NCBI RefSeq assembly: GCF_007829835.1 | Contig: NZ_VIWP01000001.1 | Coordinates: 1-64,000, forward strand | From: Neorhizobium alkalisoli | GTDB taxonomy: Bacteria; Pseudomonadota; Alphaproteobacteria; Rhizobiales; Rhizobiaceae | DNA length: 64,000 nt | Direction of reading: 5' to 3' | Shown: positions 1 through 34,876 of the stretch, piece by piece | Layout: every line of letters begins with the position of its first letter | How positions within the stretch are numbered: the stretch's first letter is position 1 | Notes under the pieces: generated by a model | Told to the model about the DNA's origin: nothing | Seen by the model: only the letters and a program-made list of their open reading frames with translations | Databases searched by the model: none | Program-made: the position numbers and the translations under genes

Positions 1-96
1 GGCGGCATCATCTCGGAACGAGGGGGCGACTATTTCTCGGAATCAGGGGGCGACATCATTTCGGAATCAGGGGGCGGATTGCCTCGGAATTTGCAC
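1..96. repeat. Four tandem 24-bp repeats, probable IS21-type terminal end
   Basis: Four consecutive 24-base units fill the left edge, with core TCGGAATCAGGGGGCGA; the fourth unit is degenerate. They sit back to back without spacers, so this is not CRISPR. Read on the minus strand the inner border begins TGCAAATTCC. Several internal terminal repeats and a TG start are typical of IS21-family ends, so I infer one end of such an element, cut off by the window edge. It interrupts the IS66 tnpC gene at about 96/97. Confidence 0.55.
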
Positions 97-990
97 GTAG
101 GTGAAGGCCACGCCCGGTGGAGAGCCGCCGCCTCACGGTCCATCATCCCGCGCCAGCGCCCAGAAGTATCCTGTCTTCGTTTTGCGCGAGCCGGGGTCCA
201 GAACTGGTGCACGGGTCTCGTCCATGAACAGCTTGGTCGAGCGCTTCAGGTCGGCAATCAGTGCATCGAAGACGGGACGTAATTCGAACGCTGCCCGGCC
301 GACCCAATCGGCGAGCGTGGAGCGGTCGAGATCGACGCCTTGGCGGTTCATGATCTGGGCCTGACGGTAAAGCGGAAGACGATCGGCATATTTGGAGACA
401 AGGACATGGGCCACCGTGGCCTCCGTCGGCAGTCCTGCCGAGATCAGCCGTGCTGGAGCCGGGGCTTGAACGACGCCGTCGGTGCAGGCACGGCACGCAT
501 ATTTGGGACGACAGGTGACGATGACGCGGAACTGCGCCGGGACGACGTACAACCGCTCGGAGACATCTTCGCCAATGCAATGCAGGCAACCGCCGCAGGC
601 ACAGATCAGGCTTTCTGGCTCGATTACCTCTTCAAAACGAGGAAGATGCTTTGGAAGGGAGCCGCGATTGATCGCACGTGGCTTGGCAATCCTATTTGCC
701 GCAGGAGCGTCCGCCTCATCCTCGGCATGGATCACGGCCATCGCCGTCTCCAGGTCTTCCAGCGCCAGGTCGAATTGATCAGGATCGGTCTTCTCGGATT
801 TGCGCCCGAAGGCTGCCTGCTTGAATGCTGCGACCAGCTTCTCAAGCCGCTCGATCCGCTCATCCTTGCGGGCGATGTGCTCATCTTTGCTGGCTATAGC
901 AACATCCTTGGCCGCCTCGCGTGCCTGCGCCGCAATCAGCATCGCCTTCAGGGCGGCAACGTCATCGGGAAGGTCGGAGGCATCAAGCAT
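97..990 (-). pseudogene. tnpC: IS66 transposase TnpC, broken
   Basis: This is the DDE transposase of the IS66 element. The open frame gives 285 residues: a coiled N-terminus (KDEHIARKDERIERLEKL), a Cys-rich zinc-binding part (CACGGCLHC) and the start of the catalytic core (MDETRAPVLDPG), ending GYFWALARDDGP. Intact TnpC proteins are about 500 residues. At 133-135 a TGA stands where the family usually has Trp; reading on gives GGGSPPGVAFTY, which still matches, until the sequence changes to the 24-bp repeats at about 96. The gene therefore carries a nonsense change and a truncation and should be inactive. Confidence 0.85.
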
Positions 991-1059
991 GGCCGGAAAC
1001 TACCAAATCCCGAGCCGATTTGCCTTTGGAATTTGTCGTACTGAGTCATCGTGCCGCAG

Positions 1060-1413
1060 CTATTCGATGGCCTCCGGCGTTCTCGTCTGGATGGCATGAA
1101 CCCGCCGCCAATCGAGGCCCGCGAACAGCGCCTCGAACTGGGCATGGGTGAGCGTCATCAATCCGTCCTTGATGCCTGGCCAGGTGAACGTGTGCTCTTC
1201 CAGCCTTTTGTAGGCCATGACGATCCCGGAGCCATCCCAGTAGATCAGCTTCAACCGGTCCGCCTTGCGTGATCGGAACACGAAGACCGTTCCGGTAAAC
1301 GGGTCTTTGTGCAGCTCGTTCTTCACCAGCGCCGCCAAGCCGTCATGACCCTTGCGGAAGTCTACGGGTTTGGTGGCCACCATGATCCTGACGCGGTTCG
1401 ACGGAAAGATCAT
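1060..1413 (-). CDS. tnpB: IS66 accessory protein TnpB
   Basis: The 117-residue protein matches IS66 TnpB (the Orf2 family) over its whole length, with the typical stretches VATKPVDFRKGHDGLAALV, GTVFVFRSRKADRLKLIYWD and KRLEEHTFTWP. TnpB is an accessory protein needed for IS66 transposition; its biochemical role is not firmly settled. Its start codon overlaps the tnpA stop (ATGA at 1410-1413), so the two are translationally coupled. It appears intact, but the element cannot move by itself with a broken tnpC. Confidence 0.92.
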   Translation of the reverse strand: MIFPSNRVRIMVATKPVDFRKGHDGLAALVKNELHKDPFTGTVFVFRSRKADRLKLIYWDGSGIVMAYKRLEEHTFTWPGIKDGLMTLTHAQFEALFAGLDWRRVHAIQTRTPEAIE

Positions 1414-1796
1414 GTCGCCGCCGCCAAGGCACGCGCGATAGCGGCGATCCGGGCCGTAGACGCCCCTTCCTCAAGACGGATGGTGACTGGACCGATGATA
1501 ATCTCGGGGCGACCAACTGTTTTAGGCGGCGGTTCCGAAACAGGTGAATCGACGATCACCGCCGCGAACTCTACAGCATCCTCCGGTGCGGGCAGGATTA
1601 GCTTGCCCTGCCGCGCCATCGTCCGCCAGGTGGAAAGGCTGTTCGCTCGCAATCCATAGCGCTGAGCAACTTCATTGACCGTCGTACCAGGCCGCAAGCT
1701 TTCCGAAACGATCTTCGCTTTGACCTCGTCCGGCCATTGACGGTGAACATCACGTACAGGCTTCCTAGTTGTGAGAAACTCCAATGTAGTCTCCAT
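1410..1796 (-). CDS. tnpA: IS66 accessory protein TnpA
   Basis: This protein matches IS66 TnpA (Orf1), a small helix-turn-helix protein of the transposase_8-like group. The HTH is visible in VNEVAQRYGLRANSLSTWRTMARQGKL, followed by the typical C-terminal part IIIGPVTIRLEEGA and IAAIARALA. I place the start at the ATG at 1796 (METTLEFLTTRKPV) because GGGAG lies seven bases before it; the frame stays open upstream to a GTG at 1871. It is the first gene of the element and overlaps tnpB by four bases. Confidence 0.88.
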   Translation of the reverse strand: METTLEFLTTRKPVRDVHRQWPDEVKAKIVSESLRPGTTVNEVAQRYGLRANSLSTWRTMARQGKLILPAPEDAVEFAAVIVDSPVSEPPPKTVGRPEIIIGPVTIRLEEGASTARIAAIARALAAAT

Positions 1797-1938
1797 GGAG
1801 AAACTCCCGTCTTCATCCATGGTAAGCCGATCACAGATCAGGCGACGGCGGGAAAGGTGGGGGTAGAACACCGGTTACGGTACAAAGCGACTTTGTGCTC
1901 GGTAAAGCTGCTTTTTTTCACCAGCCTCAGAATCACCG

Positions 1939-1966
1939 TTGACTTCGGAAATTTTGTTCATATTTT
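1939..1966 (+). promoter_or_regulatory. Candidate promoter for the TnsA-like/FtsH-like operon
   Basis: TTGACT at 1939-1944 and TATTTT at 1961-1966 are separated by 16 bases, a plausible sigma-70 arrangement about 90 bases before the first gene at 2056. The -10 region overlaps a short direct repeat, TTTTGTTCA. It lies outside the inferred IS66 end at 1878, so the operon would have its own promoter. Confidence 0.35.
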
Positions 1967-2055
1967 GTTCACCATGATCAAGCTCCTGAGGACATCCCGA
2001 ATAGGTTGAACGGCGCGCCGCCCGCGCGGCAGAAAATCCGTTTACATATTTCAGG

Positions 2056-2679
2056 ATGTTCATGATGAGCCATTCGCACATCGAAGAGCCTGCGGCGCTC
2101 TACGCCGCTTATGCAGAAGCCTCCAGTCAGCTTTTTTACCCTAGGGGGACCGTCCGTTGTTCCGCGGATGCAATGTTCAGATCGCGGTCCGCACGTGATC
2201 TCGGCTGCCTCTTGGACGTCGACCCGAACGTCGTCGCGTGGCTGTGCCTGCCTCTGGAATTCCAGTGCGAAACAGGAAGCCATGTGCCCGACTTCCTAGT
2301 TGACTACGAAGACGGCGAACGAACGCTGCTCGATGCGGTAGAGGATCGAGAACTTCCGTCGATCGCGGAAGGCGCCGCGCTCTCTGGGTTCCGGTATCGC
2401 GGCATTCCGCGACGCGAAGTCACTGATGGCTGTCGTCTTCTCAATGCGCGCGATCTGCTTCGTTACGCCAACTGCAGGACGCCCCTTAACGACCGTATTC
2501 GGATGCTGTCCGCCATCGAGGAGGCGGGAGCGCTGACGGTCGCCGAGTGCCTAGGCATCTTCAGGGAGGTTCAGCCGATGACCGGGATTTCCTGGATGGT
2601 GCTGCACCGACTGATTGCTGTGGAACTCGACGAAGCAATGATCGGTCCGGAGACCGTCATTCGCCGTTTTCAGCGCTGA
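2056..2679 (+). CDS. TnsA-endonuclease-like protein, probably catalytically inactive
   Basis: The 207-residue protein resembles the N-terminal nuclease domain of TnsA, the end-cleaving subunit of Tn7-like transposons: SARDLGCLLDVDPNVVAW (45-62), then PLEF and HVPDFLVDYEDG (77-88), then LLDAVED (91-97). A possible winged-helix region follows (about 145-205). In active TnsA-type enzymes the acidic residue of the first motif and the Lys after the last strand are catalytic. Here the first is Ala (SARDL) and the last motif has no Lys, while Asp79 is kept, so I infer a non-cutting or altered protein. Three in-frame ATGs (2056, 2062, 2065) are possible starts. It is first of three linked genes, 11 bases before the protease gene. 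The family call rests on motif reading only. Confidence 0.55.
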   Translation: MFMMSHSHIEEPAALYAAYAEASSQLFYPRGTVRCSADAMFRSRSARDLGCLLDVDPNVVAWLCLPLEFQCETGSHVPDFLVDYEDGERTLLDAVEDRELPSIAEGAALSGFRYRGIPRREVTDGCRLLNARDLLRYANCRTPLNDRIRMLSAIEEAGALTVAECLGIFREVQPMTGISWMVLHRLIAVELDEAMIGPETVIRRFQR

Positions 2680-2690
2680 GGGGGGCAAAA

Positions 2691-4562
2691 ATGACCCATC
2701 CTTCTAAAAGTCGCCGCACGGTGACTATGGAACGCGTTGCCTACGGCCTCGCCCTAAAAGTCGCCGCCAGAGTGGGTGGCGGCTTCAAGAAGGTAGAGAA
2801 CGGCCGTCAGGTCGTGATCGCTCTCCGGCTTCCTGCCGGTTCCGACTTCCAGGAATATGTTGCCGCCGCAAACATCCTCGTTTCTTCGGTTGAAGCCCTG
2901 AGCAGGTTCGATGTTGCTGCTCCAAAGGTCGGATATAAGGGAGCTCTCGAGGCGCAGAGCGTTCGAGATGACCTCAAAAGAAAACACTTCCTTCTCGTCA
3001 TCTGGCCGCACGAATACACGATGCCCCGCGACGTCGCGCTGGCTGCCGATCGTGTCGTGGACGTCGAACCTGTCCGGCCGTTTCACCTCGTCTCAGCGGC
3101 CAAGAGCGTTGCAGATCAAAAGGTAGAACTGGCCGACGCAAGGAAGATGCTCGATCATCCAGTGACGGACGTCTTTGCGGCCTTCCGCAACCGGCGTCCG
3201 CCCGCGGAGGTCCTCGATCGATTGGAGCAGCCACGGATTGTCGCCGAGCCCGTGCCGCAGGGACCCTATCTTGAAGAACTTGTCGGGTACGGGGAGGCTA
3301 AGGTCTGGGGGCTTTCGCTCGCCACAGACATTGATGCATGGAGGGCCGCTAACCTCGAATGGTCAGACGTCGATCGCGGCCTTCTCCTGAGCGGTCCGCC
3401 CGGAACCGGCAAGACGATGTTTGCTGGAGCGGTTGCTCGATCCTGCGGCGCGCATCTCGTGGCGACATCGGTTGCGCAATGGCAGGCGGCGGGACATCTC
3501 GACGACACCTTGAAAGCAATGCGTCGAACTTTCGAAGAAGCGATCGCAAACAAACCCGCCATCGTCTTCATCGACGAGTTCGACGGAATCGGCGACCGGA
3601 CGCGGCTTGTGGGCAACGAGTACGAAACATATTGGCGTCAGGTGATCAATCTGCTGCTCGAACTGATTGATGGCCACGAACGGCTTGAAGGCGTCGTAGT
3701 CATCGGCGCAACGAATTATCCCACTATGATCGATGCCGCCCTCCGGCGTCCTGGTCGTCTTGATCGGCATATCCAGATCTCCCTTCCAGATCACGGCGAG
3801 CGCAAGCATCTATCCCGCAGGTATTTCGGTGACCAATTTTCCGACACCGAGGTCGAAATGCTGGCGGCGGCGACCGCCGGGTTCTCTGGAGCACATTTCG
3901 AGCAAGCTGGCCGCGAAGCGAGGCGGACGGCTCGACGAAAGGATAGGGCTGTTTCCATTGTCGATGTACTGGCCGTCCTTCCTGAGCCGAAACGGATCGC
4001 CGGCCATGAACGCCGCATGGTGGCCCTTCATGAAGCTGGGCACGCTGTCGTCGGAGTTCGACTGGGCGTCGGTGTTCTCAGAACGGTAGCCGTCCCTTGG
4101 GAGGCGCACGCCATGCAGCCCCTGGGATTTGCACACTTTGAGTTCGACAACGACCTGCTGATGAGCAGGCAGGGATATCTCGATCAGATCGCAATGACTC
4201 TCGGGGGCAGGGCGGCGGAGGAGGTCATCCTCGGGACCGCCTTCGAAGGCGCAGGGGCGGGTGAAGGCGCGGATCTCCACAAGGCGAGCGACCTCGCCAC
4301 CAGATTAGAAGTCCAGCTCGGCATGGGAGAGAGCCTTGCTTACTTCAATCTCAAGTCCCCCGAGCAGCGGGACGGCCTTCGTCAAGCCAATCATGTCGTC
4401 GCGGCACGCGTGGAGCGTCTCCTTGCTCAGGAGATGGAGCGAAGCCGGGAAATCGTTGGGAAGTTCCGCGCGGCAGTCGAACAGATTGCCGACATCCTTG
4501 TTGAAAAGGCGCTCATCGACGGTGACGAAGTCAGGCGCATTGTATGGGAGGCTTCGCAATGA
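2691..4562 (+). CDS. Soluble FtsH-like AAA+ ATP-dependent zinc metalloprotease
   Basis: This 623-residue protein joins an AAA+ ATPase to an M41 zinc peptidase, as in FtsH. Walker A GPPGTGKT is at 235-242, Walker B IVFIDEFD at 291-298, and the second region of homology with two Arg at 340-359 (RRPGRLDR). The zinc motif HEAGH is at 447-451, with Asp528 as the likely third ligand. FtsH has N-terminal membrane helices and a periplasmic domain; here the first 230 residues are hydrophilic with no transmembrane segment. The FVG pore motif of FtsH is also not evident (the region reads WQAAGHLDD). The ATG at 2691 follows a strong GAGGGGGG site. It probably unfolds and degrades specific targets, perhaps presented by its operon partners; substrates are unknown. 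Confidence 0.85.
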   Translation: MTHPSKSRRTVTMERVAYGLALKVAARVGGGFKKVENGRQVVIALRLPAGSDFQEYVAAANILVSSVEALSRFDVAAPKVGYKGALEAQSVRDDLKRKHFLLVIWPHEYTMPRDVALAADRVVDVEPVRPFHLVSAAKSVADQKVELADARKMLDHPVTDVFAAFRNRRPPAEVLDRLEQPRIVAEPVPQGPYLEELVGYGEAKVWGLSLATDIDAWRAANLEWSDVDRGLLLSGPPGTGKTMFAGAVARSCGAHLVATSVAQWQAAGHLDDTLKAMRRTFEEAIANKPAIVFIDEFDGIGDRTRLVGNEYETYWRQVINLLLELIDGHERLEGVVVIGATNYPTMIDAALRRPGRLDRHIQISLPDHGERKHLSRRYFGDQFSDTEVEMLAAATAGFSGAHFEQAGREARRTARRKDRAVSIVDVLAVLPEPKRIAGHERRMVALHEAGHAVVGVRLGVGVLRTVAVPWEAHAMQPLGFAHFEFDNDLLMSRQGYLDQIAMTLGGRAAEEVILGTAFEGAGAGEGADLHKASDLATRLEVQLGMGESLAYFNLKSPEQRDGLRQANHVVAARVERLLAQEMERSREIVGKFRAAVEQIADILVEKALIDGDEVRRIVWEASQ

Positions 4563-4864
4563 CCAAAGGAAACCCGGCGTCGGAAATCGACTGGAAACTC
4601 GTCGTGCGGAGCTTGAAGTCAAGTGGCACGGACGGCGCGCTCGTGCTCGCGGAGAAGGCAATCCTTGAAGCGGCAGGAATTCCGCTTAGGCTTCGCGAAG
4701 CGCGACGTCGGCTCTTCATGCTGACGACGTCCGCGTCCGAAGGAAGGCCGGCGGTAATCGGGACGGACACCGGGCTGGTCTGCCTCATCGCGTTGGATGA
4801 TCTGCTGGACGTTGTGATAGAGGACGGGCCAACGTTGGCGGAGGTATTAAGAGATCGCCGTTGA
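4559..4864 (+). CDS. Small unknown protein, third gene of the protease operon
   Basis: A 101-residue protein I do not recognise. It starts at the ATG at 4559, which overlaps the stop codon of the protease gene (ATGA), so it is translationally coupled to it. It is mostly helical and charged, with a central stretch RRRLFMLTTSASEGRPAVIGTD and an acidic C-terminus (DLLDVVIEDGPTLAEVL). It has no signal peptide or membrane segment. Coupling suggests an adaptor, inhibitor or substrate of the protease, which is inference. The stop codon lies exactly where an IS66 remnant begins, so the original C-terminus may have been altered. Confidence 0.6.
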   Translation: MTKGNPASEIDWKLVVRSLKSSGTDGALVLAEKAILEAAGIPLRLREARRRLFMLTTSASEGRPAVIGTDTGLVCLIALDDLLDVVIEDGPTLAEVLRDRR

Positions 4865-4967
4865 TCCATACCTGAGCGCCACGCTGACCGCGATCGTCAA
4901 TGGCGATAGGCAGAGCCGTATCGAAGAGCTGATACCGTGGAATAATTCGCGGCGGTCAAACGGCTAA
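4863..4967 (+). pseudogene. IS66 tnpC 3'-end remnant
   Basis: In the frame starting at 4863 the sequence reads DPYLSATLTAIVNGD, then SRIEELIPWN and a short tail to a TAA at 4965-4967. This is the characteristic C-terminus of IS66 TnpC. It is on the plus strand, opposite to the IS66 copy at 97-1878, and starts at the stop codon of the preceding gene. The three-gene operon is therefore bracketed by IS66 sequence on both sides. Confidence 0.7.
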
Positions 4968-5861
4968 AGTCTGCTGTCGGCCCAAACCGGTCACTGCCAG
5001 CAGGGTGGCGGGAGGGCAGCTTCGCGCCCCCAGGTCAGACGTAGAAACCATCTGTCGCGTTCCTGAAAGTGGACATACTCACTACCCGGCAATCCTCACT
5101 GTGCGCGCAAGTTGCGAGGGTTCACGGAAGCTACTCCATCTACGGCTGGGCACCCTCGTGTTGTGGTGCCGCTCAGGAGAAAGGATCGTAGGCGGGGTGG
5201 CGAAGTCTCACCAGCTAGTCCGTCGGCAATCGAAAAGGTCTATCCTTGATCACCTGCTTCGTGGAGGGCTCTGCCTCGACGCCCCAGCAGATCATCGCGA
5301 AGTGTGTGATGTTTACTTGTAGCGTCGCATTTGGGTCTGTTCCGATCAGGATACAGGCTCAAGAGCCGAGGGGCCACCCTGCATCGAAGTCAGAAGATCG
5401 GGTCGCCAACGAAAAACTCGTCCCACGTTTCTATAGTCCCTATTAGATTGGCACCTGAGCGATTGACGTTCCTCTCTAGTAACCAAGCGATTGGTCCAAA
5501 TAGTGCATAACCGTATGCGGTCTGGGTGACCTAATCCTTTTGGCGGATACGGTGTAAAACGGCTTATTCGTTGTAACGGAGACCACCATGAAATTCTCGG
5601 GCTTCCAATCGTGTGTATTCTCCCTGCTTGCCCTTGTTTGTGGCATAGGGTGGATTGCGCACATCCAAAATTGCACTGCCTAAACGTCCTCGGCTCAATG
5701 TGCCGCATCCATGCTGCCCAGCAGCTTAAGCAAAATTGCCCAAACTCCGGTAGCCCTGTCGCTCAATGGCTTGCGAGCTATCCTCCGCTGCTGAAGAACC
5801 GTGAATGCCACCTAATCATTTTGTATCCCCGCCAATCGCTTGGACATATCGATCCTGAACA
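4968..5861. other. Long stretch without a recognisable gene
   Basis: About 900 bases with no open frame that shows a recognisable family, good start site or rhizobial codon pattern. The longest frames (5005-5322 plus, 5346-5708 minus) have unusual composition rich in Cys, His, Trp and Arg. It begins with a copy of a dispersed motif (4969-4997) and ends where the paoB fragment starts. It is best read as degraded or rearranged DNA. Confidence 0.5.
4969..4997 (+). repeat. Dispersed motif copy, GTCTGCTGTCGGCCCAAACC-type
   Basis: This short sequence shares the core CGGCCCAAA(C/G)CGG with copies at 11863-11915 and 13071-13100. It lies just after the IS66 tnpC remnant. Such motifs are common in non-coding DNA of Rhizobiales as I recall, and probably mark degenerate intergenic repeats. 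Confidence 0.4.
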
Positions 5862-6119
5862 TCAATCAATTGGATCATGCGACGCGAGATCGGTGTTGCG
5901 CACCATGGCGCCGATCCGCAGCCCGCCGTCTGCGGTGGCCTCGATCGTGTCCAGCCCGAGGCCGTTCACGTCGATCAGGTGGGTGGGCGTCTCGATCTCC
6001 AGCTTCATCAGGTCGAGGAGATTGGTGCCGCCGGCGATGAACTTGGCTTCCCGGTTGCCGGCAGCCGTCTGCGCCGCGGCCTCGATGGAGGAAGCACGTT
6101 CGTAGGTAAAGGCTCTCAT
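5862..6119 (-). pseudogene. Truncated FAD-binding subunit of a xanthine/aldehyde dehydrogenase (PaoB/YagS type)
   Basis: The 85-residue frame starts [15 protein letters not shown] and contains [13 protein letters not shown], then [15 protein letters not shown] and [14 protein letters not shown]. This is the N-terminal FAD-binding part of the roughly 320-residue medium subunit of molybdenum hydroxylases. It stops after LASHDPID, where the family sequence is lost. Only about a quarter of the gene remains, so it is non-functional. Its start overlaps the stop of the upstream fragment, as in genuine paoAB operons. Confidence 0.8.
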
Positions 6120-6292
6120 GCTTCGATCCCCGCAACTTCGGATATGGCGTCGAGAATGTTGGAATAAGCACCGCAGCGACTGTCCTGCACGGTAACGGGA
6201 GGATTGGAGAGCGGGTATTTTTTGTCTTCGGCAAGGGCTGGCGCCGTGGCAATCGAGACAGAGAGCGCCGTTGCGGCGAGGTGCTGCTTCAT
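6116..6292 (-). pseudogene. Chimeric remnant: signal peptide fused to a PaoA C-terminal tail
   Basis: The 58-codon frame from the ATG at 6292 begins with a typical signal peptide ([21 protein letters not shown]). After about residue 36 it changes to [20 protein letters not shown], which matches the end of the 2Fe-2S subunit PaoA (the RCGAY motif carries a cluster Cys). The stop overlaps the paoB start (ATGA). An internal deletion seems to have joined the start of one exported-protein gene to the end of paoA. No functional protein is expected. Confidence 0.65.
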
Positions 6293-6527
6293 GGGTCAAG
6301 TCCTTCGGTTGAGTAACACTCACGAACGCAACAGCGGCCGCCTAAGCGATATGGCGATGCAGTTCAGCGGGATTAGAGGTCCGTTTTTGATAAGGCTTAT
6401 GCGTCTACCCCATCACTGCCGAGGCCGGGCAGGCCCACCATAGTCTTTAAAGGGGTTCACCCTGCACGCCACCGACGAGTTAAGCATGGGCGCGGCAAAA
6501 CACTAGCGACCTTGTCAGCGCGTGGAT

Positions 6528-6947
6528 TCAATGGGCCTTATCGACTGTGACGGTGACTTTACCGGGACGATCAAAGACCGAAACGTCGCCTTGCACCCGA
6601 CCCAGAATAACGATGCCTGGCGCCGGCACGCGTCCATCACGGTAGTAGATGACGAAATCGCTCGAACTCCATAGGCCAAGCGTTCCCGTGGAAAATTCGC
6701 GCTGGCGTGAAGCCGTTGGCAAGGCAGAAGGCAGGTCGCCCGTCTTTTCCTGGCGCAGATGATCGTCCATCTCGATCGTTAAAGGCAGCATTTCGGCAAA
6801 GGCGCGAGCAGCAGCGTTGTCCGCGAGCTCGGCCGTGACATTGCCCCAGTTCGACGAAATCGAGATACGATCCTGGGCCATTGCGGTCCCTCCCATTGGC
6901 ATTGTCAGCGAGGCAATGATGAATGCGCTTCCTGCGAGATACTTCAT
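6528..6947 (-). CDS. Exported cyclophilin-like fold protein
   Basis: The 139-residue protein has an N-terminal signal peptide with a cut site after GGTAMA. The rest resembles the small bacterial cyclophilin-like fold family: NAAARAFAEMLPLTIEMDD, EKTGDLPSALP, GTLGLWSSSDFVIYYRDG and ILGRVQGD. These proteins have a cyclophilin-like barrel but are not shown to be peptidyl-prolyl isomerases. Its start overlaps the stop of the DUF4405 gene by ATGA, making it the last gene of an operon with cytochrome P460. It should act in the periplasm; the function is unknown. Confidence 0.72.
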   Translation of the reverse strand: MKYLAGSAFIIASLTMPMGGTAMAQDRISISSNWGNVTAELADNAAARAFAEMLPLTIEMDDHLRQEKTGDLPSALPTASRQREFSTGTLGLWSSSDFVIYYRDGRVPAPGIVILGRVQGDVSVFDRPGKVTVTVDKAH

Positions 6948-7639
6948 GTTCCACCATTATTTGAGCGAGAACGGGGCTTTCCGGCCGACCTTAGAGCAGC
7001 CATCGAATAATATGAAAGCACGGCGACACCAGCAATGACCGCTGTCCAATGGGCAAAAAACGGCGTCACCGACGCGGTGAAATCCCAGAAGTACAGGCTG
7101 TAGCCAAACGTCAGCTTCGTCGAGACGCCGAGGACAGCGAAACTCCATGCTCCATACGCCAGCAAGAGCGCGGAAAAGAGCCTGAGCCAGTTGGTCCTGA
7201 CCCGCGAGGGAGAGAGCCTGAGTACAGTAGCGAAAGTCACCATCACACGCGGCCAATGGCTTCCGAGATGCACGGCGATGATCAACACCACCCAGTAAGC
7301 CGAGAACCAGTGGACTTCGATGACGCTGACGTGATCCGTGAACTGGATGAAGCTCACCGACCGGGAGATCAGCACGCTGGTCACGAACAGCACCGTGATG
7401 TTGATCGCCAACCAAGTATGGATGATCACGACCGCCCAGCGGCGGGCGTCGTATTGGCCGATACGAAGCGTTAGGAACCACCGCCTGTTGGTGTAAATGT
7501 GCCAGGTCAAAAGTCCTAACATTGCCGTCCCAAAGGCCTCGTGTGGGCCGTTGTCGAGCCACCAGTAGGCAAGGGATAGCATCAAGAGCGCGGCCATAGC
7601 TGCGGGCAGAAGAAGGCGATTGATTGCTAGTCGGAGCAT
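6944..7639 (-). CDS. DUF4405-type membrane protein, possible b-type cytochrome
   Basis: The 231-residue protein has about five hydrophobic segments. WHIYTNRRWF near residue 46 and HWFSAYWVVLIIAVHLGSHW near 109-128 supply paired His residues of the kind that bind haem in small cytochrome b-like membrane proteins (DUF4405). I infer an electron-carrying membrane subunit. It lies 18 bases after the cytochrome P460 gene and overlaps the cyclophilin-like gene, so the three are co-transcribed. Haem binding is a family-based inference. Confidence 0.65.
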   Translation of the reverse strand: MLRLAINRLLLPAAMAALLMLSLAYWWLDNGPHEAFGTAMLGLLTWHIYTNRRWFLTLRIGQYDARRWAVVIIHTWLAINITVLFVTSVLISRSVSFIQFTDHVSVIEVHWFSAYWVVLIIAVHLGSHWPRVMVTFATVLRLSPSRVRTNWLRLFSALLLAYGAWSFAVLGVSTKLTFGYSLYFWDFTASVTPFFAHWTAVIAGVAVLSYYSMAALRSAGKPRSRSNNGGT

Positions 7640-7657
7640 CGCGATACCCCGCTAACA

Positions 7658-8131
7658 TCAGAGGAGATCATCATCTGAGATAGCTCCATCGAACGTGAAC
7701 ATGAACTGTTCGGACTGACGTGAGCGATGGCAGGAATAGCAACGAGCGACATTTTCGTCTGCTTTGGCTGTCCCATCCGGCCAGAACCACTGATATTCCC
7801 ACTCGTTCTCCCCGTCGCCGATCTTTTGGCCGACGAGATAGCGCGTCAGGACATCGCGCTGATAATCGACAAGAACCATGTGCGTGCCTGTGGGAACAGG
7901 CTGGCCGGCTTTGAGAGCTGTGAGGGCCTGAGGGCTTGTCAGCATGTGTTCCCGCGTGATGCCCCGTCGAACCGTCGTGTAGTGCATAAGCTGATCGAGA
8001 GGCGGGAATGTCACCGAGTTGGCAGCCGCAAGTGCTGGTGTCGGCGAAAACTCGGTCTCGACCAGGAAATAGCCTGTCAGAACGACCACGAAGGGTAGGG
8101 CCATCAAGCCGGACAAGCGATAGACTTTCAT
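7658..8131 (-). CDS. Cytochrome P460-family c-type cytochrome
   Basis: The 157-residue protein has an N-terminal membrane or signal segment (residues 6-24) and one haem c motif CYSCH at 131-135. Upstream are FPPLDQLMHYTTVRRGITREHM and WEYQWFWPDG, typical of the cytochrome P460 family. P460 proteins act in the periplasm, some oxidising hydroxylamine, though most members are uncharacterised. I chose the ATG at 8131 because GGGTG precedes it and the signal segment follows at once; the frame stays open upstream to 8185. It leads an operon with the DUF4405 and cyclophilin-like genes. Confidence 0.8.
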   Translation of the reverse strand: MKVYRLSGLMALPFVVVLTGYFLVETEFSPTPALAAANSVTFPPLDQLMHYTTVRRGITREHMLTSPQALTALKAGQPVPTGTHMVLVDYQRDVLTRYLVGQKIGDGENEWEYQWFWPDGTAKADENVARCYSCHRSRQSEQFMFTFDGAISDDDLL

Positions 8132-8210
8132 AGTATTCACCCTTGTAACGATCGATTGACGCTGTCGCACTCTTCGCCTCCGCATTGGGCAGGCATATTC
8201 TTGAGCTTGC

Positions 8211-8250
8211 CCATCTGTCTCGGTCGCCTCACGACGGCCGAGACAGATGG
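8211..8250. terminator. 13-bp perfect inverted repeat after the hydrolase gene
   Basis: CCATCTGTCTCGG at 8211-8223 pairs with CCGAGACAGATGG at 8238-8250 across a 14-base loop. It lies between the hydrolase gene and the cytochrome P460 gene, both on the minus strand. It has no clear T-run, so it may be an attenuator or a Rho-assisted stop rather than a classic terminator. Confidence 0.45.
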
Positions 8251-8296
8251 AGGGACCAAGGCCACAAGCAACGCCTGCGGCTGGTTCCGCTTCAGT

Positions 8297-9403
8297 TTAG
8301 GCGAGATGCTGATCGAAAAAGTTCTTCAGCCGGTCGAACGGAATGAGATCAACGCGGTCGTAGAGATCGACATGACCCGCTCCCTTGACCCAGACCAGTT
8401 CCTTGGGCTCCGACGCCCGGTTGTAGGCATCTTGGCTGAATTCCTTCGAATGCGCCTGGTCGCCGGAGATGAACAGCATCGGGCGCGGCGAGATCGTCTC
8501 GATGTCGTTGAAGGGATAGAAGTTCATGAACTTGACGCTGCTGCTAAGGGTCGGCTTCGTCGTCGTCTCCCTCATGACGCCGACAGGCGTGAACTCACCG
8601 CGGGGCGTGCGATAGAAGTCATAGAACTCGCGCTGAATCGGATCCGTATCGGCCGTCAGTTCCAGTGTGGTGCCACCAATGTACTGGGTCTTTGCACCGT
8701 CGGCCTCCGCCCAGCGCTGTTCTGCGGCGGTTGCGATGAACTCCTTGCGCTGCTCGACTGTCTGCGACTTGTTCAGTGCGTCGCGAAAGGCAGCGCCCAT
8801 GTCGTACATGCTGACCGTTGCGACCGCCTTGATACGCGGGTCGATCTTGGCGGCGCTGATGACGAAGCTTCCGCTACCGCAGACTCCGATTGCGCCGATA
8901 TTCTTTCGGTCCACGAAGTCGCTTGACCCGAGGAAGTCGACGCCCGCGCTGAATGCTTCGGCGTAGATTTCCGGCGAAACGAGATTGCGCAACTGTCCCT
9001 CGCTGTCCCCCCAGAAAGGAAGATCGATGGACATGGCTACAAAACCCTGCTCGGCCATTTTCGTGGCGTAGAGATTTGCGCTCTGCTCTTTGACTGCTCC
9101 CATTGGGTGACCCACGATGATGGCAGGGCTCTTGACCGTCCGGTCGAGGTCCTTGGGAAGGTACAGGTTGCCGGCGACATTTGTCTGATACTGCGTTTTG
9201 AACGTGACCTTGTGGAAGGTTACCTTATCGCTGGTGTAGAAATTTGCCGCCCCGTTGGACATGTCTTGAGCCTTTGCAACTGTTATGTCGAAAGTGGACA
9301 TCGCCGCGATGGTTGCTACGCCGGCTCCTGTCATCTTGAGCAGGTGGCGGCGATCGATGCCGGTTTTCGAGGTCTCTGCGTTCTCGTGAATATCTTGGGT
9401 CAT
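8297..9403 (-). CDS. Tat-exported alpha/beta hydrolase
   Basis: The 368-residue protein begins with a twin-arginine signal (DRRHLLKMTGAG, Arg at 18-19) followed by a hydrophobic segment ending near AKA. The body is an alpha/beta hydrolase of the dienelactone hydrolase-like group: HPMGAVKEQS around the oxyanion region, nucleophile elbow GVCGSGSF, Asp in FISGDQ and His in GAGHVDLYD. The elbow suggests Cys or Ser as nucleophile. The ATG at 9403 is preferred because an AGGAGA site precedes it. It follows an MFS exporter gene on the same strand by 57 bases, with a LysR regulator divergent, suggesting shared control. The substrate is unknown. Confidence 0.8.
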   Translation of the reverse strand: MTQDIHENAETSKTGIDRRHLLKMTGAGVATIAAMSTFDITVAKAQDMSNGAANFYTSDKVTFHKVTFKTQYQTNVAGNLYLPKDLDRTVKSPAIIVGHPMGAVKEQSANLYATKMAEQGFVAMSIDLPFWGDSEGQLRNLVSPEIYAEAFSAGVDFLGSSDFVDRKNIGAIGVCGSGSFVISAAKIDPRIKAVATVSMYDMGAAFRDALNKSQTVEQRKEFIATAAEQRWAEADGAKTQYIGGTTLELTADTDPIQREFYDFYRTPRGEFTPVGVMRETTTKPTLSSSVKFMNFYPFNDIETISPRPMLFISGDQAHSKEFSQDAYNRASEPKELVWVKGAGHVDLYDRVDLIPFDRLKNFFDQHLA

Positions 9404-9460
9404 CTGCGCGTCTCCTTTAGAAATCATAGGTTGCGAATTGTGCCGGACGGCAGACCAGCT

Positions 9461-10690
9461 TCACCGACCCGCTGAATGCCGCGCCGCGATGGCTAAAACG
9501 AAAGATCCGCCCAGCAGCGCCGCAGCGAACAGGAAGGTGGTCCACCAACCTGCGCTGTCGAACAGCACGCCTCCGATAGAGGCGCCAAGCGTGATCGCGA
9601 GCTGAATGGTCGCCACCTGCAGTCCTCCACCTGCCTCTGCGTCGTCAGGCATGGTTCGGCTAAGCCAGGTCCCCCAACCGACAGGAGCGGCAGTGCTGAA
9701 CAGACCCCAGCCTATGAGCAGAGCTGCTGTGATCGTTGGGGATGTACCGAATGCGATCAGCGCCAATGCAATGACGGCCATGATCAGCGGTATCGCAGCG
9801 AGAACGACGAACAACCACTTTTGCAGCAGGTGACTGACGATCGTGGTCCCTGCCACTCCCGCCAGACCCATCAACAGAAGCAGGAGCGACAGGGTCGATA
9901 TTGAAACCGACGTCACGGTTTCCAGGAAAGGACGGAGATATGTGAACAGGGCAAACTGACCCATAAAGACGAGCATGATTGATGCCATGCCGATGGCTAC
10001 CGGTGGGCGGAGCAGCAACCTGAACACGTTTGATGAGCCCTCACTGCGACGCGGAGGCAGGGGCGGAATGCTGATCCACTGCCAGACGAGCGCCAGAAGT
10101 GCCAGCGGAACGACGGCAAAGAAGGCGCCGCGCCAGCCTATGTAGCTTCCAAGCAGGCTTCCGAGTGGCGCAGCAATCGTTGCCGAAATGGCATTGCCTG
10201 CATTCAGCATCGCAAGGCCCTTGGGCACGGAGTTTTCTGGAACCAGACGCATGACGACCGACGTCGACATCGACCAGAAGCCACCAATGGCGACGCCTAG
10301 CAAGGCACGCCCGACCATCAGCACGATGTAGTTTGGCGCAAAGGTCACAATCGCTCCCGAGATCACCAGGATCAGCGAGAACGATCCCAGCACCAATCGC
10401 TTGTCCAATCGACGCGTGAACCCCGCCACGCAAATGCTGGTGACGACGGCAAAAATGCCTGAGATGGAGATCGCCTGGCCGGCTCGGCCCTCCGTTACAC
10501 CCAGGTCCGTGGCGATGGGGGAGAGAAGGCTGACCGGCATAAATTCCGACGCGATCAGGACGGCAACGCACAAGGCCATGGAGATGACTGCGCCCCAGGC
10601 CGCAACCGGTACAGCCGAAGTGGCAGGAGACGTGACCGAGGCTACTTCGTCGTTCTTAAAGTCGGATTGTATGAGAGCTTTTTGTGCCAT
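9461..10690 (-). CDS. MFS transporter, AraJ/sugar-efflux-like
   Basis: The roughly 409-residue protein has twelve predicted membrane helices and the features of DHA1-type exporters related to AraJ and YdhP: SEFMPVSLLSPIATDLGVTEG in the first helix region, and GRALLGVAIGGFWSMS in helix 4-5. I place the start at the ATG at 10690 (MAQKALIQ); an in-frame upstream start at 10720 is possible. It runs in the same direction as the hydrolase gene and diverges from the LysR gene across 100 bases. The substrate cannot be told; export of a small metabolite or drug is likely. Confidence 0.82.
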   Translation of the reverse strand: MAQKALIQSDFKNDEVASVTSPATSAVPVAAWGAVISMALCVAVLIASEFMPVSLLSPIATDLGVTEGRAGQAISISGIFAVVTSICVAGFTRRLDKRLVLGSFSLILVISGAIVTFAPNYIVLMVGRALLGVAIGGFWSMSTSVVMRLVPENSVPKGLAMLNAGNAISATIAAPLGSLLGSYIGWRGAFFAVVPLALLALVWQWISIPPLPPRRSEGSSNVFRLLLRPPVAIGMASIMLVFMGQFALFTYLRPFLETVTSVSISTLSLLLLLMGLAGVAGTTIVSHLLQKWLFVVLAAIPLIMAVIALALIAFGTSPTITAALLIGWGLFSTAAPVGWGTWLSRTMPDDAEAGGGLQVATIQLAITLGASIGGVLFDSAGWWTTFLFAAALLGGSFVLAIAARHSAGR

Positions 10691-10790
10691 GGCCGCAATA
10701 TACGCAACGGTCAGTTCCAAGATTAGTCATTGCAATTCGCTTGGACCTATCGCCCTATGACATCAATCACCGATGCTTTGGAGACGGACC

Positions 10791-11678
10791 ATGAAGCGGG
10801 AAGATCTCAATGACATGCTTTGGTTTCTGGCAGTGGCAGAGGAGCGGAGCTTCACAAAAGCGGCCGCGAGACTCGGTACGTCGCAATCGACCATCAGCCA
10901 TACCATCAAGAAGCTCGAAGCTCGGATGGGGCTACGCCTTCTGACCCGCACGACCCGCAGCGTTTCTCCCACGGAAGCGGGAGAGAGATTGATCCGCTCC
11001 CTGGCGCCGCGCATCGAGGAGCTCGAGACCGAGATCGACGCGCTGATGGAGTTCAGGGACAAACCGTCGGGCTCTGTTCGCATAACGCTTTCCGATCACG
11101 CGTTGGAAAGCGTTGTCTGGCCGAAGCTGCGCTCAGTTCTACGAGACTACCCCGACATCAAGGTCGAGCTTAACAGCGACAACGGCTTCCGGAATATTGT
11201 GGAAGAGAAATTTGACGCCGGGGTGCGGCTCGGTGAAAGTGTTGATAAGGACATGATCGCCGTCCGCATCGGGCCAGACTGGCGACTGATCGTCGTGGCC
11301 TCTCCGGAATATTTCGCAGGGAGGCCGGCTCCTGAAATGCCACAGCAGCTCGTCGCTCATGACTGTATCAACCATAGGCAGTCGCGCCTCGGAGGGCTGT
11401 ACAGTTGGGAATTCGAGAAGGGTGGCAGGGAGCTTCGGGTCCGTGTAGAGGGCCAACTGACCTTCAACACGTCCTACGCGATGATCGATGCCGCCGTGAA
11501 AGGGTACGGAATTGCTTACGTACCCGAAAATCTGGTTCAACGGCAGCTTGCGTCCGGTGAGTTAGTGCAGGTTCTCGATGACTGGACCCCGCTGTTTCCA
11601 GGCTACTACCTCTATTACCCAAGCAGACGACAGAACTCTCCAGCGTTCAAGGTCGTTGTAGAGGCGCTGCGCGTTTAA
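10791..11678 (+). CDS. LysR-family transcriptional regulator
   Basis: The 295-residue protein has the N-terminal winged helix-turn-helix of LysR regulators (MLWFLAVAEERSFTKAAARLGTSQSTISHTIKKLE, residues 6-40) and a C-terminal effector-binding domain ending in the usual YYPSRRQNSPAFKVVVEAL. I chose the ATG at 10791 because GGAG lies eight bases before it. It diverges from the MFS exporter gene, the classic layout in which a LysR protein controls its neighbour from the shared 100-base region. The inducer is unknown. Confidence 0.9.
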   Translation: MKREDLNDMLWFLAVAEERSFTKAAARLGTSQSTISHTIKKLEARMGLRLLTRTTRSVSPTEAGERLIRSLAPRIEELETEIDALMEFRDKPSGSVRITLSDHALESVVWPKLRSVLRDYPDIKVELNSDNGFRNIVEEKFDAGVRLGESVDKDMIAVRIGPDWRLIVVASPEYFAGRPAPEMPQQLVAHDCINHRQSRLGGLYSWEFEKGGRELRVRVEGQLTFNTSYAMIDAAVKGYGIAYVPENLVQRQLASGELVQVLDDWTPLFPGYYLYYPSRRQNSPAFKVVVEALRV

Positions 11679-12060
11679 ATGTGAAAGGGGCGAACGCAGC
11701 CGATGTAGCGTTAAGGGCCGTTGCGGGGCTGCGGAGTAATGCAGCTTCGATGCTTAAAACATGTTCTCCTCGCCCGCATTCGTCCGCTGCCCGGCTCCAT
11801 CACCTGAAAGCCGCCCGTCCGCTTGCGGCCCCAGTACAGCCGTCAACTTCGAAGCAGCTCATGTCTCCTTTTGGCGCAAAGCGGAAGACGGCTATCGGCC
11901 CAAAGCGGCCGACAACGGAATCCCTACGTATTGGGTGCCGGGTTGACACCGGCCGCACATCGACAAATATTTCGCTTGGCGCGGGAGTGGGGCAGACCCC
12001 TAACTTTTCGCCCGCTGGGACTTCAACTCCGCGCCACCATTATTTTGGAGTCGCCGTCTC
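11679..12060. other. Intergenic stretch with dispersed motif, no clear gene
   Basis: About 380 bases after the LysR gene. The open frames here (for example 11681-12097) have no recognisable family and run across the dispersed motif at 11863-11915. I see no convincing start site or coding pattern. It probably is degraded intergenic DNA. Confidence 0.5.
11863..11915 (+). repeat. Double copy of the dispersed GGCCCAAAGCGG motif
   Basis: Two imperfect copies lie side by side: one around CTTTTGGCGCAAAGCGGAAG and one around CTATCGGCCCAAAGCGGCCG. The same core occurs at 4969-4997 and 13071-13100. All copies are outside recognised genes. Confidence 0.45.
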
Positions 12061-29297: not shown

Positions 29298-29634
29298 GCT
29301 TCACTCCTCACGCCAATGGCCGGAGTGAACCACCTGCCGTCGTCCGAGTCGAGTGCGGTTTTGCAACAGGCTAAACCATACGTTTACACGCTGGCGGCGA
29401 GAACCTGGAGGTGAGGCTTAGCGCGTACCAGGGCGTGATCTGCGCGCCAAGCCTCTGCCGCAGGCTGCATTTTGAGGGGGACACCCGCGACAAGGGGACA
29501 TTGCCGCGGCAAATTTTATGGTTCCAGTTGCGTAAGCAGACATGCCTAACGAATTATGAATACCCACAGGCTTCGCGGATTGAGATACCACATCAGCGGG
29601 TGCGCCGCTGTTTTCAGATACCGCAGGCTTCGAT
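29298..29634. other. Intergenic stretch, nothing recognised
   Basis: About 340 bases between the 42-residue gene and the next small gene. I see no open frame with a family match, no RNA gene and no strong repeat. It probably holds the promoter of the small membrane protein. Confidence 0.5.
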
Positions 29635-29808
29635 CTATTGCAGGTTCAGCCGAAGCTGAACGCCCTTGGGCACGCTCAGCTTACGCAGTGTCGCAAGCTC
29701 GATTCGTCCGTAAACTGCCTTGCGCTCACGATCATGGCGCTCGCGAAGCGCCTTGGATGCTGCCACGGCTGCAAGAGCGCGTGCGACGACCTCATCAGTT
29801 CTTTGCAT
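29635..29808 (-). CDS. 57-residue hypothetical protein
   Basis: The start is the ATG at 29808, after AAAGGAGATTGCC. The peptide is a charged helix (MQRTDEVVARALAAVAASKA, LRERHDRERKAVYGRIELA) with a short basic tail. It is divergent from gnd. I recognise no family. The good ribosome-binding site supports expression. Confidence 0.5.
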   Translation of the reverse strand: MQRTDEVVARALAAVAASKALRERHDRERKAVYGRIELATLRKLSVPKGVQLRLNLQ

Positions 29809-30032
29809 GGCAATCTCCTTTGTTCTTCTTTTGTTCTCATATTTTTTACTCGACGTCAAGAGATATGGCGGCATGGAGAATTGTCGGTTCGCGGCATGCG
29901 GGCGGGCGCTGGCAAATTATCCTCACCCCATTCCAGCGGGGTGCCAATCCGCGGGTGAACTGTTATGTCTATCGCGCAATTGAGTCCGGACTGTCGGACA
30001 AAGACGCTGTTTATGCGCAGAAAGGAATTGCA

Positions 30033-31034
30033 ATGCAGATCGCTATGATAGGCCTGGGAAGAATGGGCGCCAACATGGTTCGGCGGCTTCTTCGCGGTGG
30101 TCATGAATGCGTGGTATTTGACGTCAACAAGGCAAGCGTCGATGCGCTCGCAGGCGAAGGCGCCGTTGGCGCAAGCTCGATCGAGGACCTCGTCTCCAAG
30201 CTTGCCAAGCCGGCCGCCGTTTGGATGATGCTTCCCGCCGCAATTACCGATGACACTTTGAATGTTCTCGCCGGCCTTCTGGCTCGTGGCGACGTGATCA
30301 TCGATGGCGGCAATTCGAATTACCAGGACGACGTGGATCGCGCCGGCAAGCTCGCTGAAAAGGGCATCGACTATATCGATGTCGGCACGAGCGGCGGCGT
30401 CTGGGGTCTCGAGCGCGGTTATTGCCTGATGATCGGTGGCCCGAAGGCTGCGGTAACGCGCCTCGACCCGATCTTCCTGTCGCTGGCACCGGGTGCCGGC
30501 ACGGCGGAAAGCGGCGTAGGCCGCCGCACCTCGGAACTCGGCTATATCCATTGCGGACCGAGCGGTTCCGGCCATTTCGTCAAGATGGTCCACAACGGTA
30601 TCGAATACGGCATGATGGCCGCTTATGCGGAAGGCATGAACCTTCTGAAAGCCGCCAATTCCGGCAAGCAGACCCGCACAGTCGATGCCGAGACGAGCCC
30701 GCTGTCGCATCCGCAATATTACCAGTTCGATCTCGATGTCGCCGAGATCAGCGAAGTATGGCGCCATGGCAGCGTCGTTTCCTCCTGGCTGCTCGATCTT
30801 CTGGCGCAGTCGCTGGAAAACGACCCGAACCTCGAAGTGTTCAGCGGACGCGTTTCGGATTCCGGCGAAGGTCGCTGGATGCTGAAGGCTGGTATCGATA
30901 CCGGCATTCCGCTGCCGGTCCTGTCCTCGGCGCTCTTCCAGCGCTTCTCCTCGCAGGGCCACGAGCGTTATTCCAACCAGGTTCTCTCCGCACTGCGCGC
31001 TGCCTTCGGCGGCCATGCGGAAAAGAAGCACTGA
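30033..31034 (+). CDS. gnd: 6-phosphogluconate dehydrogenase, decarboxylating (short form)
   Basis: The 333-residue enzyme converts 6-phosphogluconate to ribulose-5-phosphate with NAD(P), in the pentose phosphate pathway. The nucleotide-binding start IGLGRMGANMVRRL, the substrate motif GGNSNYQDD, DVGTSGGVWG and the catalytic HFVKMVHNGIEYG are all present. The length fits the short GntZ/YqeC-type branch (about 300-335) rather than the 470-residue form. I chose the ATG at 30033 after AAAGGAATTG; the frame is open far upstream without support. Confidence 0.93.
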   Translation: MQIAMIGLGRMGANMVRRLLRGGHECVVFDVNKASVDALAGEGAVGASSIEDLVSKLAKPAAVWMMLPAAITDDTLNVLAGLLARGDVIIDGGNSNYQDDVDRAGKLAEKGIDYIDVGTSGGVWGLERGYCLMIGGPKAAVTRLDPIFLSLAPGAGTAESGVGRRTSELGYIHCGPSGSGHFVKMVHNGIEYGMMAAYAEGMNLLKAANSGKQTRTVDAETSPLSHPQYYQFDLDVAEISEVWRHGSVVSSWLLDLLAQSLENDPNLEVFSGRVSDSGEGRWMLKAGIDTGIPLPVLSSALFQRFSSQGHERYSNQVLSALRAAFGGHAEKKH

Positions 31035-34120: not shown

Positions 34121-34876
34121 TCAGCGCAGTAAAGGCCTAAGAGCATTTGCCACGGCTTGCAGTGGCTCGAGGAATTTATGTGCCATCTGGTCGGCGGATA
34201 TGCTGGCTGCTGAAGCGCCGATATTAAGCGCGGCGACAGTGATGCCGCGATCATTTTTCAATGGTACCGCGATTGAGCACAGGCCAAGCTCAAGCTCCTG
34301 GTCGATGATTGCAAACCCCTGCTGCCTTACCTTTGAAAGTTCTTCCAGAAGCTCGTTGGGTTCAGTCTTGGTTCGCGGCGTGAACGCGGCAAGGCTGGTT
34401 TTTTCCAGAAGCTGGCGCGCCTCGTTTTCGGGAAGGGCGGCCAGAAGCACACGGCCCATGGAGGCGCAATAGGCCGGAAGACGGCTTCCCGGCATGAGGT
34501 TGATCGACATTACCCGTTTTTGCGAGGCGCGCGCAATATAGACGACTTCCGTGCCGTCCAGCACGCTTGCCGATGCGCTCTGGTGGACTTCTTCCGCAAG
34601 CCTGTCGAGGTAAGGTTGAACGACCTGCGGCAGCGGTGTCGCCGACAGATAGGCATGGCCAAGGCGCAGGATTTTTGGCGTCAGCGAAAAGAATTTCCCG
34701 TCATAATCTGCATAACCGAGCTCGGCCAGCGTCAGCAGGCAACGTCGTGCGGTCGCCCGATCGAGGCCGGTTGCCTTCGAGACATCGGCAATCGCCAGTC
34801 TTGGCGTTTTCTCGCCAAAGGCCTCGATCACTTTCAATCCGCGCGCAAAGCCGCTGACGAAATCCGTTTCCCGCAT
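34121..34876 (-). CDS. pcaR: IclR-family regulator, probably PcaR
   Basis: The 251-residue protein has the IclR winged helix (FARGLKVIEAFGEKTPRLAI, DVSKATGLDRATARRCLLTL) and the C-terminal effector domain (LPAYCASMGRVLLAALPENE, IAVPLKNDRGITVAALNIGA). These blocks match the PcaR/PobR branch, which senses 3-oxoadipate and activates pca genes. It diverges from pcaIJF across 156 bases holding a perfect inverted repeat, which supports PcaR. Confidence 0.85.
   Translation of the reverse strand: MRETDFVSGFARGLKVIEAFGEKTPRLAIADVSKATGLDRATARRCLLTLAELGYADYDGKFFSLTPKILRLGHAYLSATPLPQVVQPYLDRLAEEVHQSASASVLDGTEVVYIARASQKRVMSINLMPGSRLPAYCASMGRVLLAALPENEARQLLEKTSLAAFTPRTKTEPNELLEELSKVRQQGFAIIDQELELGLCSIAVPLKNDRGITVAALNIGASAASISADQMAHKFLEPLQAVANALRPLLR

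Follow-up and report, generated by a model that had tools for sequence, protein, structure and literature searches.

Several described systems pair an AAA+ ATPase with proteolysis or with transposition. FtsH fuses such an ATPase to an M41 protease carrying an HEXXH motif, and in IetAS an IetA-related ATPase is coupled to proteolysis by a separate serine protease, IetS. ClpX (or ClpXP), an AAA+ unfoldase encoded by the host and lacking both a fused M41 protease and a TnsA-derived partner, remodels the transposition complexes of MuA and of Tn7-like CRISPR-associated transposons (CASTs). The TnsA nuclease of Tn7 (structures 1f1z and 1t0f, profile NF033179) has a two-domain layout with PDF and RLxNA motifs, and its catalytic residues are Glu63, Asp114, and Lys132. 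Here we analyze an operon at positions 2056–4864 of the first 64,000 nucleotides (the window) of contig NZ_VIWP01000001.1 of Neorhizobium alkalisoli (assembly GCF_007829835.1), whose first two products, P1 and P2, resemble these systems in part.

P1 shares both motifs and, apparently, the layout of TnsA but has lost the catalytic Glu and Lys, and it has an AAA+ protease as partner and an SOS-type promoter. P2, like FtsH, joins an AAA+ ATPase to an M41 protease with HEXXH, but it has no transmembrane segment, has a different N-terminal domain, and scores far under the FtsH equivalog cut-off. The pair differs from IetAS by the fused M41 zinc domain and by the extra TnsA-like partner, and the comparison with ClpX concerns the way of working only. 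We propose, with a probability of roughly 0.4, that P1-P2 is an accessory module which Tn7-like transposons of the Rhizobiaceae carry and which is SOS-induced; in it, P1 would be a pseudo-TnsA adaptor that feeds transposition complexes to a dedicated protease. We rank cargo defense, a trigger that degrades a repressor, and a general role in damage tolerance below this reading. A full-text search of open-access PMC papers found no description of the pair among the matches listed, in agreement with a preliminary description, made from the letters of the window alone, that had called it no known standard pair.

The Operon and the Conserved P1-P2 Pair

Three intact, closely spaced open reading frames (ORFs) lie at 2056–4864, with 11 bases between P1 and P2 and an ATGA overlap between P2 and P3, which confirms the tightly packed three-gene operon first described. 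The features of the locus are the following.

2056..2679, + strand: P1, 207 amino acids as called; TnsA-like protein lacking the Glu and Lys of the active site, plus a putative winged-helix C-terminus
2691..4562, + strand: P2, 623 amino acids; soluble AAA+ ATPase fused to an M41 zinc protease
4559..4864, + strand: P3, 101 amino acids; small optional third protein, possibly Phd/YefM-like
1939..1944, + strand: −35-like hexamer TTGACT, a presumed promoter element; TTGAC is kept in 10 of 10 aligned upstream regions
1956..1970, + strand: putative LexA/SOS-type box GTTCATATTTTGTTC, of the form GTTC-N7-GTTC; it overlaps the presumed −10 (TATTTT, 1961–1966)
133..1871, − strand: IS66-like remnant (tnpC cut, tnpB, tnpA); context near the contig start, outside the module

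Homologues of P1 begin with MMS or MS, which suggests that its true start is perhaps two or three codons inside (ATGs at 2062 and 2065). The longest P2 ORF begins at 2547 (GTG), and the alignment favors 2691 as the start.

P1 homologues directly precede P2 homologues in loci of Neorhizobium, Rhizobium, and Sinorhizobium. Among 91 P1 hits in 90 fetched loci, P2 is found beside P1 in 69. The loci (L, as G and C for genomes and contigs, is our own handle) include duplicates, namely the window copy itself (L001), the near-identical L009 and L010, and L006, which is the same as L252; compared over their last 80 residues, 87 of the hits differ from one another. Several of the hits without an adjacent P2 correspond to contig ends, weak P1 matches, or broken P2 genes. 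The distance matrices of P1 and P2 are concordant (Mantel r = 0.77, n = 63), and judged by these sequences the two proteins co-evolve and are conserved as a pair. The distribution among these soil bacteria, relatives of the symbionts of root nodules, is patchy: the P1 profile is positive in 58 of 394 Rhizobiaceae genomes, in 11 of 397 genomes sampled at the level of the order (8 of the 11 being Rhizobiaceae), and in 2 of 385 at the level of the class, one of which is the window's own. On viral contigs, 14 stretches matched the P1 profile with no relative of P1 among them, and the search with the P2 profile found AAA/M41 proteins.

P1, a Likely TnsA-Derived Pseudo-nuclease

P1 matches the TnsA-like profile NF033179 with E = 4e-8 and 32.9 bits, below the 110-bit cut-off. 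It can be aligned with TnsA-like proteins from further members of the Rhizobiales and with Tn7 TnsA, and in this alignment the TnsA-like pattern ESxLE...PDF...E-V-K becomes RSxxA...PDF...D-A-V in P1. When Tn7 TnsA is aligned directly with the P1 profile by hhalign the alignment fails, so the intermediate TnsA-like proteins are needed; a sequence search of the PDB with the P1 profile gave chance-level matches only. The changes in the active site extend to the whole family. In the column equivalent to the catalytic Glu63, Glu is found in 0 of 77 P1 sequences (one has a gap), in the column equivalent to Lys132, Lys occurs in 1 of 77 (L266), and Asp79, the equivalent of Asp114, is retained in 74 of 77; these columns come from an automatic alignment, and those of the TnsA-like alignment were read by eye. 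The C-terminal half is the most strongly conserved (77 of 77 sequences have Asn130, and 76 of 77 have Arg147), and we read it as a putative protein- or DNA-binding face. P1 is likely a TnsA-derived pseudo-nuclease. We reject P1 as an active nuclease because both the Glu and the Lys columns are lost family-wide; of the Tn7-type nuclease relative seen in the preliminary description, the kinship with TnsA stands and the nuclease activity very probably does not.

P2, a Cytosolic AAA+ Zinc Protease

P2 matches PF00004 (AAA) at 2.9e-31 and PF01434 (Peptidase_M41) at 2.8e-23. Against the FtsH model TIGR01241 the match covers profile positions 194–598 of 598, with 198.6 bits versus a cut-off of 600. 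Walker A and B, the arginine fingers, HExGH, and Asp528, which we presume to be the third zinc ligand, are invariant in 13 of 13 P2 sequences. Of the 69 P2 genes, 67 have HEXXH and 67 have Walker A, and at the three loci with motif misses (L224, L225, and L253) the P2 ORF is shortened or split. No transmembrane helix was detected in P2 (maximum Kyte-Doolittle value (19) of 1.43), and the earlier reading of a cytosolic AAA+ zinc protease is borne out. PADLOC gave only AAA+ matches for P2 (IetA, TRIP13, and others), with the IetA model PDLC02196 at 2.8e-27. The N-terminal domain of about 190 residues has no assigned family; that it might be a decayed AAA+ domain was not supported, its score of 19.2 falling under the top of 60 shuffles (21.6). 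The structure model of P2 had low confidence in its protease part.

A longer AAA-M41 relative of about 900 amino acids is found in other Alphaproteobacteria (L011, L012, and L013), where no P1 was seen. It has similar neighbors in L011 and L013 and is apparently a family separate from P2.

A LexA-Type Box at the Predicted Promoter

When the regions upstream of ten P1 genes are aligned, all ten are seen to have TTGAC and GTTC-N7-GTTC in common. The latter is the LexA box of Caulobacter in the relevant passages of two papers (PMC9578287, PMC12700426). Within 300 bp upstream, the box is found at 55 of 65 P1-P2 loci and in the window, versus 1 of 296 control genes, and its consensus over the loci is GTTCTCTATTTGTTC. 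It was first noticed in the ten aligned regions; GTTC-N7-GTTC is present in 46 of the 56 other loci. Eight of the 15 P1 hits without P2 also carry it, and the divergent, low-scoring P1 groups are mostly without it. Before the genes that occupy the tnsA position in these islands it occurs in 0 of 21 cases, these genes being our own gene calls, of which a few are doubtful (such as L278). A LexA-type box overlaps the predicted promoter of P1-P2. For the CAST of Shewanella ANA-3, the relevant part of PMC12452197 gives no SOS effect on the transposase genes and cites Tn7 as alike. Further GTTC-N7-GTTC matches in the window lie at 29822, in a predicted ORF (29556–31031), and at 34360, between predicted ORFs.

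Association with Tn7-like Elements

Relatives of TnsB, TniB, or TniQ flank 24 of the 90 P1 loci, versus 0 of 20 control regions on contigs of the same set, and the 142 sampled P1-neighbor proteins include TniB (4) and TniQ (3). For a larger comparison, 52 genomes were drawn from the 62 that are P1-positive, ten whose P1 hits are weak or short being omitted (G029, G102, G148, G174, G221, G297, G316, G604, G707, and G1107). A match to a TnsB profile, in some cases short, is present in 44 of the 52. They hold 63 P1 places, a count that excludes three fragments in the omitted genomes, and 51 TnsBs counted at >=250 bits, that is, at least 250. TnsB is on the same contig as P1 at 38 places, lies within 50 kb of it at 36, and within 10 kb at 21; about 1.3 would be expected within 50 kb if placement were uniform in 5.3-Mb genomes. 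The preliminary description had proposed a check of conserved neighborhood and mobile-element association, and the pair at 69 of 90 loci with TnsB within 50 kb at 36 of 63 places supports both. As a control, the type I restriction-modification specificity gene (PF01420) has 19 loci in 17 of the 52 genomes, 0 of 19 within 50 kb of TnsB, the control being small and some of the 17 genomes lacking a full-length TnsB.

P1 and TnsB also co-occur between genomes: 23 have both, 4 TnsB only, 10 P1 only, and 200 neither (Fisher p = 2.5e-20). This table uses a TnsB threshold of 380 bits picked after the list was seen, scores G221 (a 26-bit P1 hit) as positive, and assumes that the 237 genomes are handles G000–G236, 145 of which were not listed. 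All 12 genomes or records behind the named P1 loci have a TnsB match (one of them, L006, had entered the earlier count as G017). For example, TnsB is 35 kb from P1 in Rhizobium johnstonii 3841; in two records it lies 96 kb (a fragment) and 134 kb away, and the TnsB of R. acidisoli carries stops. P1 and TnsB distances are correlated (Mantel r = 0.47, p = 0.0004, n = 19).

In the 21 loci that were laid out, P1-P2 lies mostly upstream of the tnsA-position gene, in either direction, and in L217 and L276 it adjoins tniQ. By eye, the catalytic Glu and Lys are also missing from the tnsA-position genes of L212, L219, L260, and L276, a hint that these elements may transpose replicatively. A PIN-domain (VapC-type) gene stands near P1 in many loci. 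PF01850 matched in 6 of 6 tested (L216, L266, just below the cut-off, L271, L272, L277, and L278), and further such neighbors are seen in L090 by annotation and in L222 only by eye.

A Delimited Element and a Second Island at tRNA-Arg(CCG)

The limits of one element could be set by comparison of plasmid pSymB of Sinorhizobium meliloti USDA1021 (NZ_CP021802.1) with S. meliloti CP140944.1. The insertion spans 1036427–1070366 (33.9 kb) and abuts the 3′ end of tRNA-Arg(CCG) (L366 44785–44861). It contains P1-P2 (1046287–1048855), TnsB (by profile), TniQ (PF06527), and a TniB relative, and both its ends carry inverted copies of TTGGCAACAGCGTACAC-like repeats. In its TnsB, TniQ, TniB relative, repeated end motifs, and tRNA-adjacent site it resembles Tn7-like transposons and CASTs, from which it differs by the SOS-boxed pseudo-TnsA/protease pair.

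In strain AK76 a different island lies at the same tRNA, with TnsB at 415957–418179 and P1-P2 at 455462–458079, and its left edge is not sharp. The pSymB tRNA-Arg(CCG) is a hot spot for two different P1-P2/TnsB islands. The P1 proteins of USDA1021 and AK76 are 45% identical, and the two TnsBs align over 147 residues only, at 27%; related P1-P2 pairs hence ride with very different transposases.

Proposed Function and Alternative Explanations

The proposal bears on the way in which Tn7-like elements take apart their product complexes and keep repeated excision in check. Under the proposed reading, LexA would repress the P1-P2 operon, and breaks or gaps from excision or insertion, or other damage, would derepress it. 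P1 would keep the docking of TnsA on TnsB/TnsC or on the transposon ends, unable to cut, and would pass these complexes, via its conserved C-terminal half, to a P2 hexamer that would unfold and degrade them. The round of transposition would thereby end, the post-transposition complex would be cleared for repair, and repeated excision in a damaged cell would be prevented. The closest precedent for such removal is the action of ClpX on a Tn7-like CAST, where it aids integration and is hypothesized to disassemble the post-transposition complex (PMC12326709). According to the same source, in the part that concerns us, CAST integration in human cells is more efficient with bacterial ClpX, at a cost in toxicity. 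A bolder version, which we regard as doubtful, is a self-policing proteolytic feedback loop: a second, dead TnsA would have been domesticated as adaptor to a private AAA+ zinc protease under the host LexA, and the DNA break made by transposition would itself turn transposition off.

If the proposal is true, the elements would encode an unfoldase-protease of their own together with an adaptor derived from the transposase, and this pair would answer the question of complex disassembly directly and would be a ready accessory for CAST tools. A tie between transposition and the SOS response would also follow, in elements that seem to have no such control over their core genes. If the function is defense instead, the pair would defend by proteolysis, with a dead nuclease acting as sensor.

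A number of observations weigh against the proposal. The function, the partners, and the substrates of P1-P2 are predictions from sequence, and the SOS box may signal a damage role unrelated to transposition. The AlphaFold model of P1 is of low confidence (pLDDT, the predicted local distance difference test, of 60), and Foldseek found no match for it at E 0.001. When Foldseek candidates were realigned to this model, residues 5–126 gave Z 7.8 over 105–106 residues with TnsA (1t0f and 1f1z), and residues 127–207, in a low-confidence part, gave Z 7–8 with winged-helix proteins; by the tool's own warning, a Z of about 7.8 can be reached by unrelated folds or by a mere common arrangement. The sequence alignment is the better evidence for the kinship with TnsA. 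The association also has gaps: 8 of the 52 P1-positive genomes, including G166 (2 contigs), have no TnsB match at E 1e-15, a few more have only short or low-scoring ones, and 25 of the 63 P1 places have no TnsB on the contig, which is often short. The TnsB profile was moreover built from P1-adjacent TnsBs, which favors the association. The place and direction of P1-P2 differ between islands, and P1-P2 co-varies loosely with TnsB (Mantel r = 0.38–0.47, versus 0.92 for TnsB-TnsC), so that the pair would be accessory and not a core or obligatory part. In the deposited sequence, the TniB relative of the USDA1021 element (L363 35115–36057) is broken across two reading frames, and this copy may therefore be decayed and may not move today. 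The copy in the window is only 2 kb away from the beginning of its contig (C1), behind the IS66-like remnant, and the sole TnsB of this genome (G000) is on another contig, C8, for which reason the copy cannot be placed in an element.

The rival that we consider next, although rather unlikely, is that the pair is an anti-phage or anti-plasmid defense carried as cargo, in which P1 would act as sensor, either of invading DNA or of a protein of the phage, and P2 would destroy phage or host proteins, the SOS induction reflecting the DNA damage of infection. The patchy distribution (58 of 394 Rhizobiaceae genomes), the resemblance of the P2 ATPase to IetA, and the third gene that changes between loci would fit this, as would the neighborhood. 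PADLOC models were matched 172 times in 142 sampled neighbors versus 10 in 140 controls (samples of 212 neighbor proteins, some from L274, which lacks P2, and of 301 control proteins), the neighbor count being inflated by six cytosine methylases that each match many models. Genes annotated as CBASS (cyclic oligonucleotide-based antiphage signaling system) and Kiwa-like lie beside P1-P2 in two named plasmids, and in L007 (6611–9603) the pair adjoins cyclase-like, cyclic-nucleotide-binding-like, and E2-like ORFs, which we take to resemble parts of Pycsar or CBASS. Against defense, P1 derives from TnsA, PADLOC matches nothing for P1 or P3, and P1-P2-P3 has no full component match among the anti-phage systems described there. 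The restriction-modification specificity gene was near TnsB at 0 of 19 loci in the same genomes, and defense cargo in general is thus not the explanation of the link between P1-P2 and TnsB, although this control is small. Tn7-like elements carry defense cargo (PMC8649781, in the part concerned), so a defense-rich context does not decide the function of P1-P2. The defense-island association that the preliminary description wanted checked holds as far as the neighborhood is defense-rich, which is largely typical Tn7-like cargo, and among the three functions then guessed (defense, transposon control, and an adaptor-dependent proteolytic switch), transposon control through an adaptor fits the new evidence best.

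An SOS trigger, in which the protease would remove a repressor of the element and mobilize it when the host is endangered, seems unlikely. Such element-encoded, SOS-dependent anti-repressor proteases exist, ImmA of ICEBs1 being an example, and a LexA-type box that P1-P2 has and that 0 of 21 tnsA-position genes have is what an indirect trigger would show; yet no conserved repressor gene turned up, without a systematic search for one, and a partner derived from TnsA points to the transposase and not to a repressor. It is improbable that P1-P2 is a general protease of the host for damage tolerance or clean-up that merely travels on islands, as the strong clustering with TnsB and the presence in only 58 of 394 genomes speak against what the SOS box and the P1-P2 loci in genomes without TnsB would allow. 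Lastly, a chance junction or decaying remnants at an IS66 insertion, which the preliminary description named as fatal to its reading, is hardly credible; the other outcome so named, that the genes do not occur together in other genomes, is contradicted for the pair by its wide recurrence. An IS66-like remnant does lie 185 bases upstream of the operon, adjoining the contig edge; the gene order and the promoter region nevertheless recur in many genomes with motifs intact, and this conservation refutes a chance junction for the P1-P2 pair.

The Variable Third Gene

Eleven loci, counting the window and one strain present in duplicate, have a P3 homologue after P2, and in 8 loci a metallophosphoesterase takes its place; both are probably optional add-ons to P1-P2. 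An obligate three-gene system is rejected because the third gene is replaced or absent at most loci, and of the unit first described only the pair P1-P2 remains. Profile searches gave no convincing family for P3, and PF02604 (Phd/YefM) had no match in 10 P3 members at E up to 10. The top PDB sequence matches were weak (Rv3357/RelJ, E 0.29–0.37), and an hhalign score of 17.3 between P3 and Phd was exceeded by 1 of 200 shuffles (18.7). The resemblance to Phd/YefM is suggestive only.

The Surroundings of the Window Copy

The window begins at base 1 of its contig, and the left side of the locus is therefore cut. The three-ORF set at 133–1871 is presumably IS66, as it had also been named earlier; the operon was then said to lie between IS66 sequences, of which the left set is present and a second copy was not found in the 64-kb window by blastn or tblastn. 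No convincing terminal repeats surround the window copy, with no end-like repeats in 4865–6600, and an Rfam scan of window positions 1–12000 gave no match. The TnsB of the same genome has a separate Tn7-like block around it (G000:C8:150560–157336), and the 60 kb fetched around that TnsB contain no P1-P2 homologue. Close relatives of the window's P1 have TnsB nearby, at 40 kb in G017, at 20 kb in G375:C26, and at about 12 kb in N. vignae, if contig numbers correspond. The P1-P2 genes of the window may thus stand alone, or they may be what is seen of an element that is broken or was not fully assembled. At positions 1–90, beside the truncated IS66-like tnpC, the window has clustered copies of a TCGGAATCAGGGGGCG-like motif.

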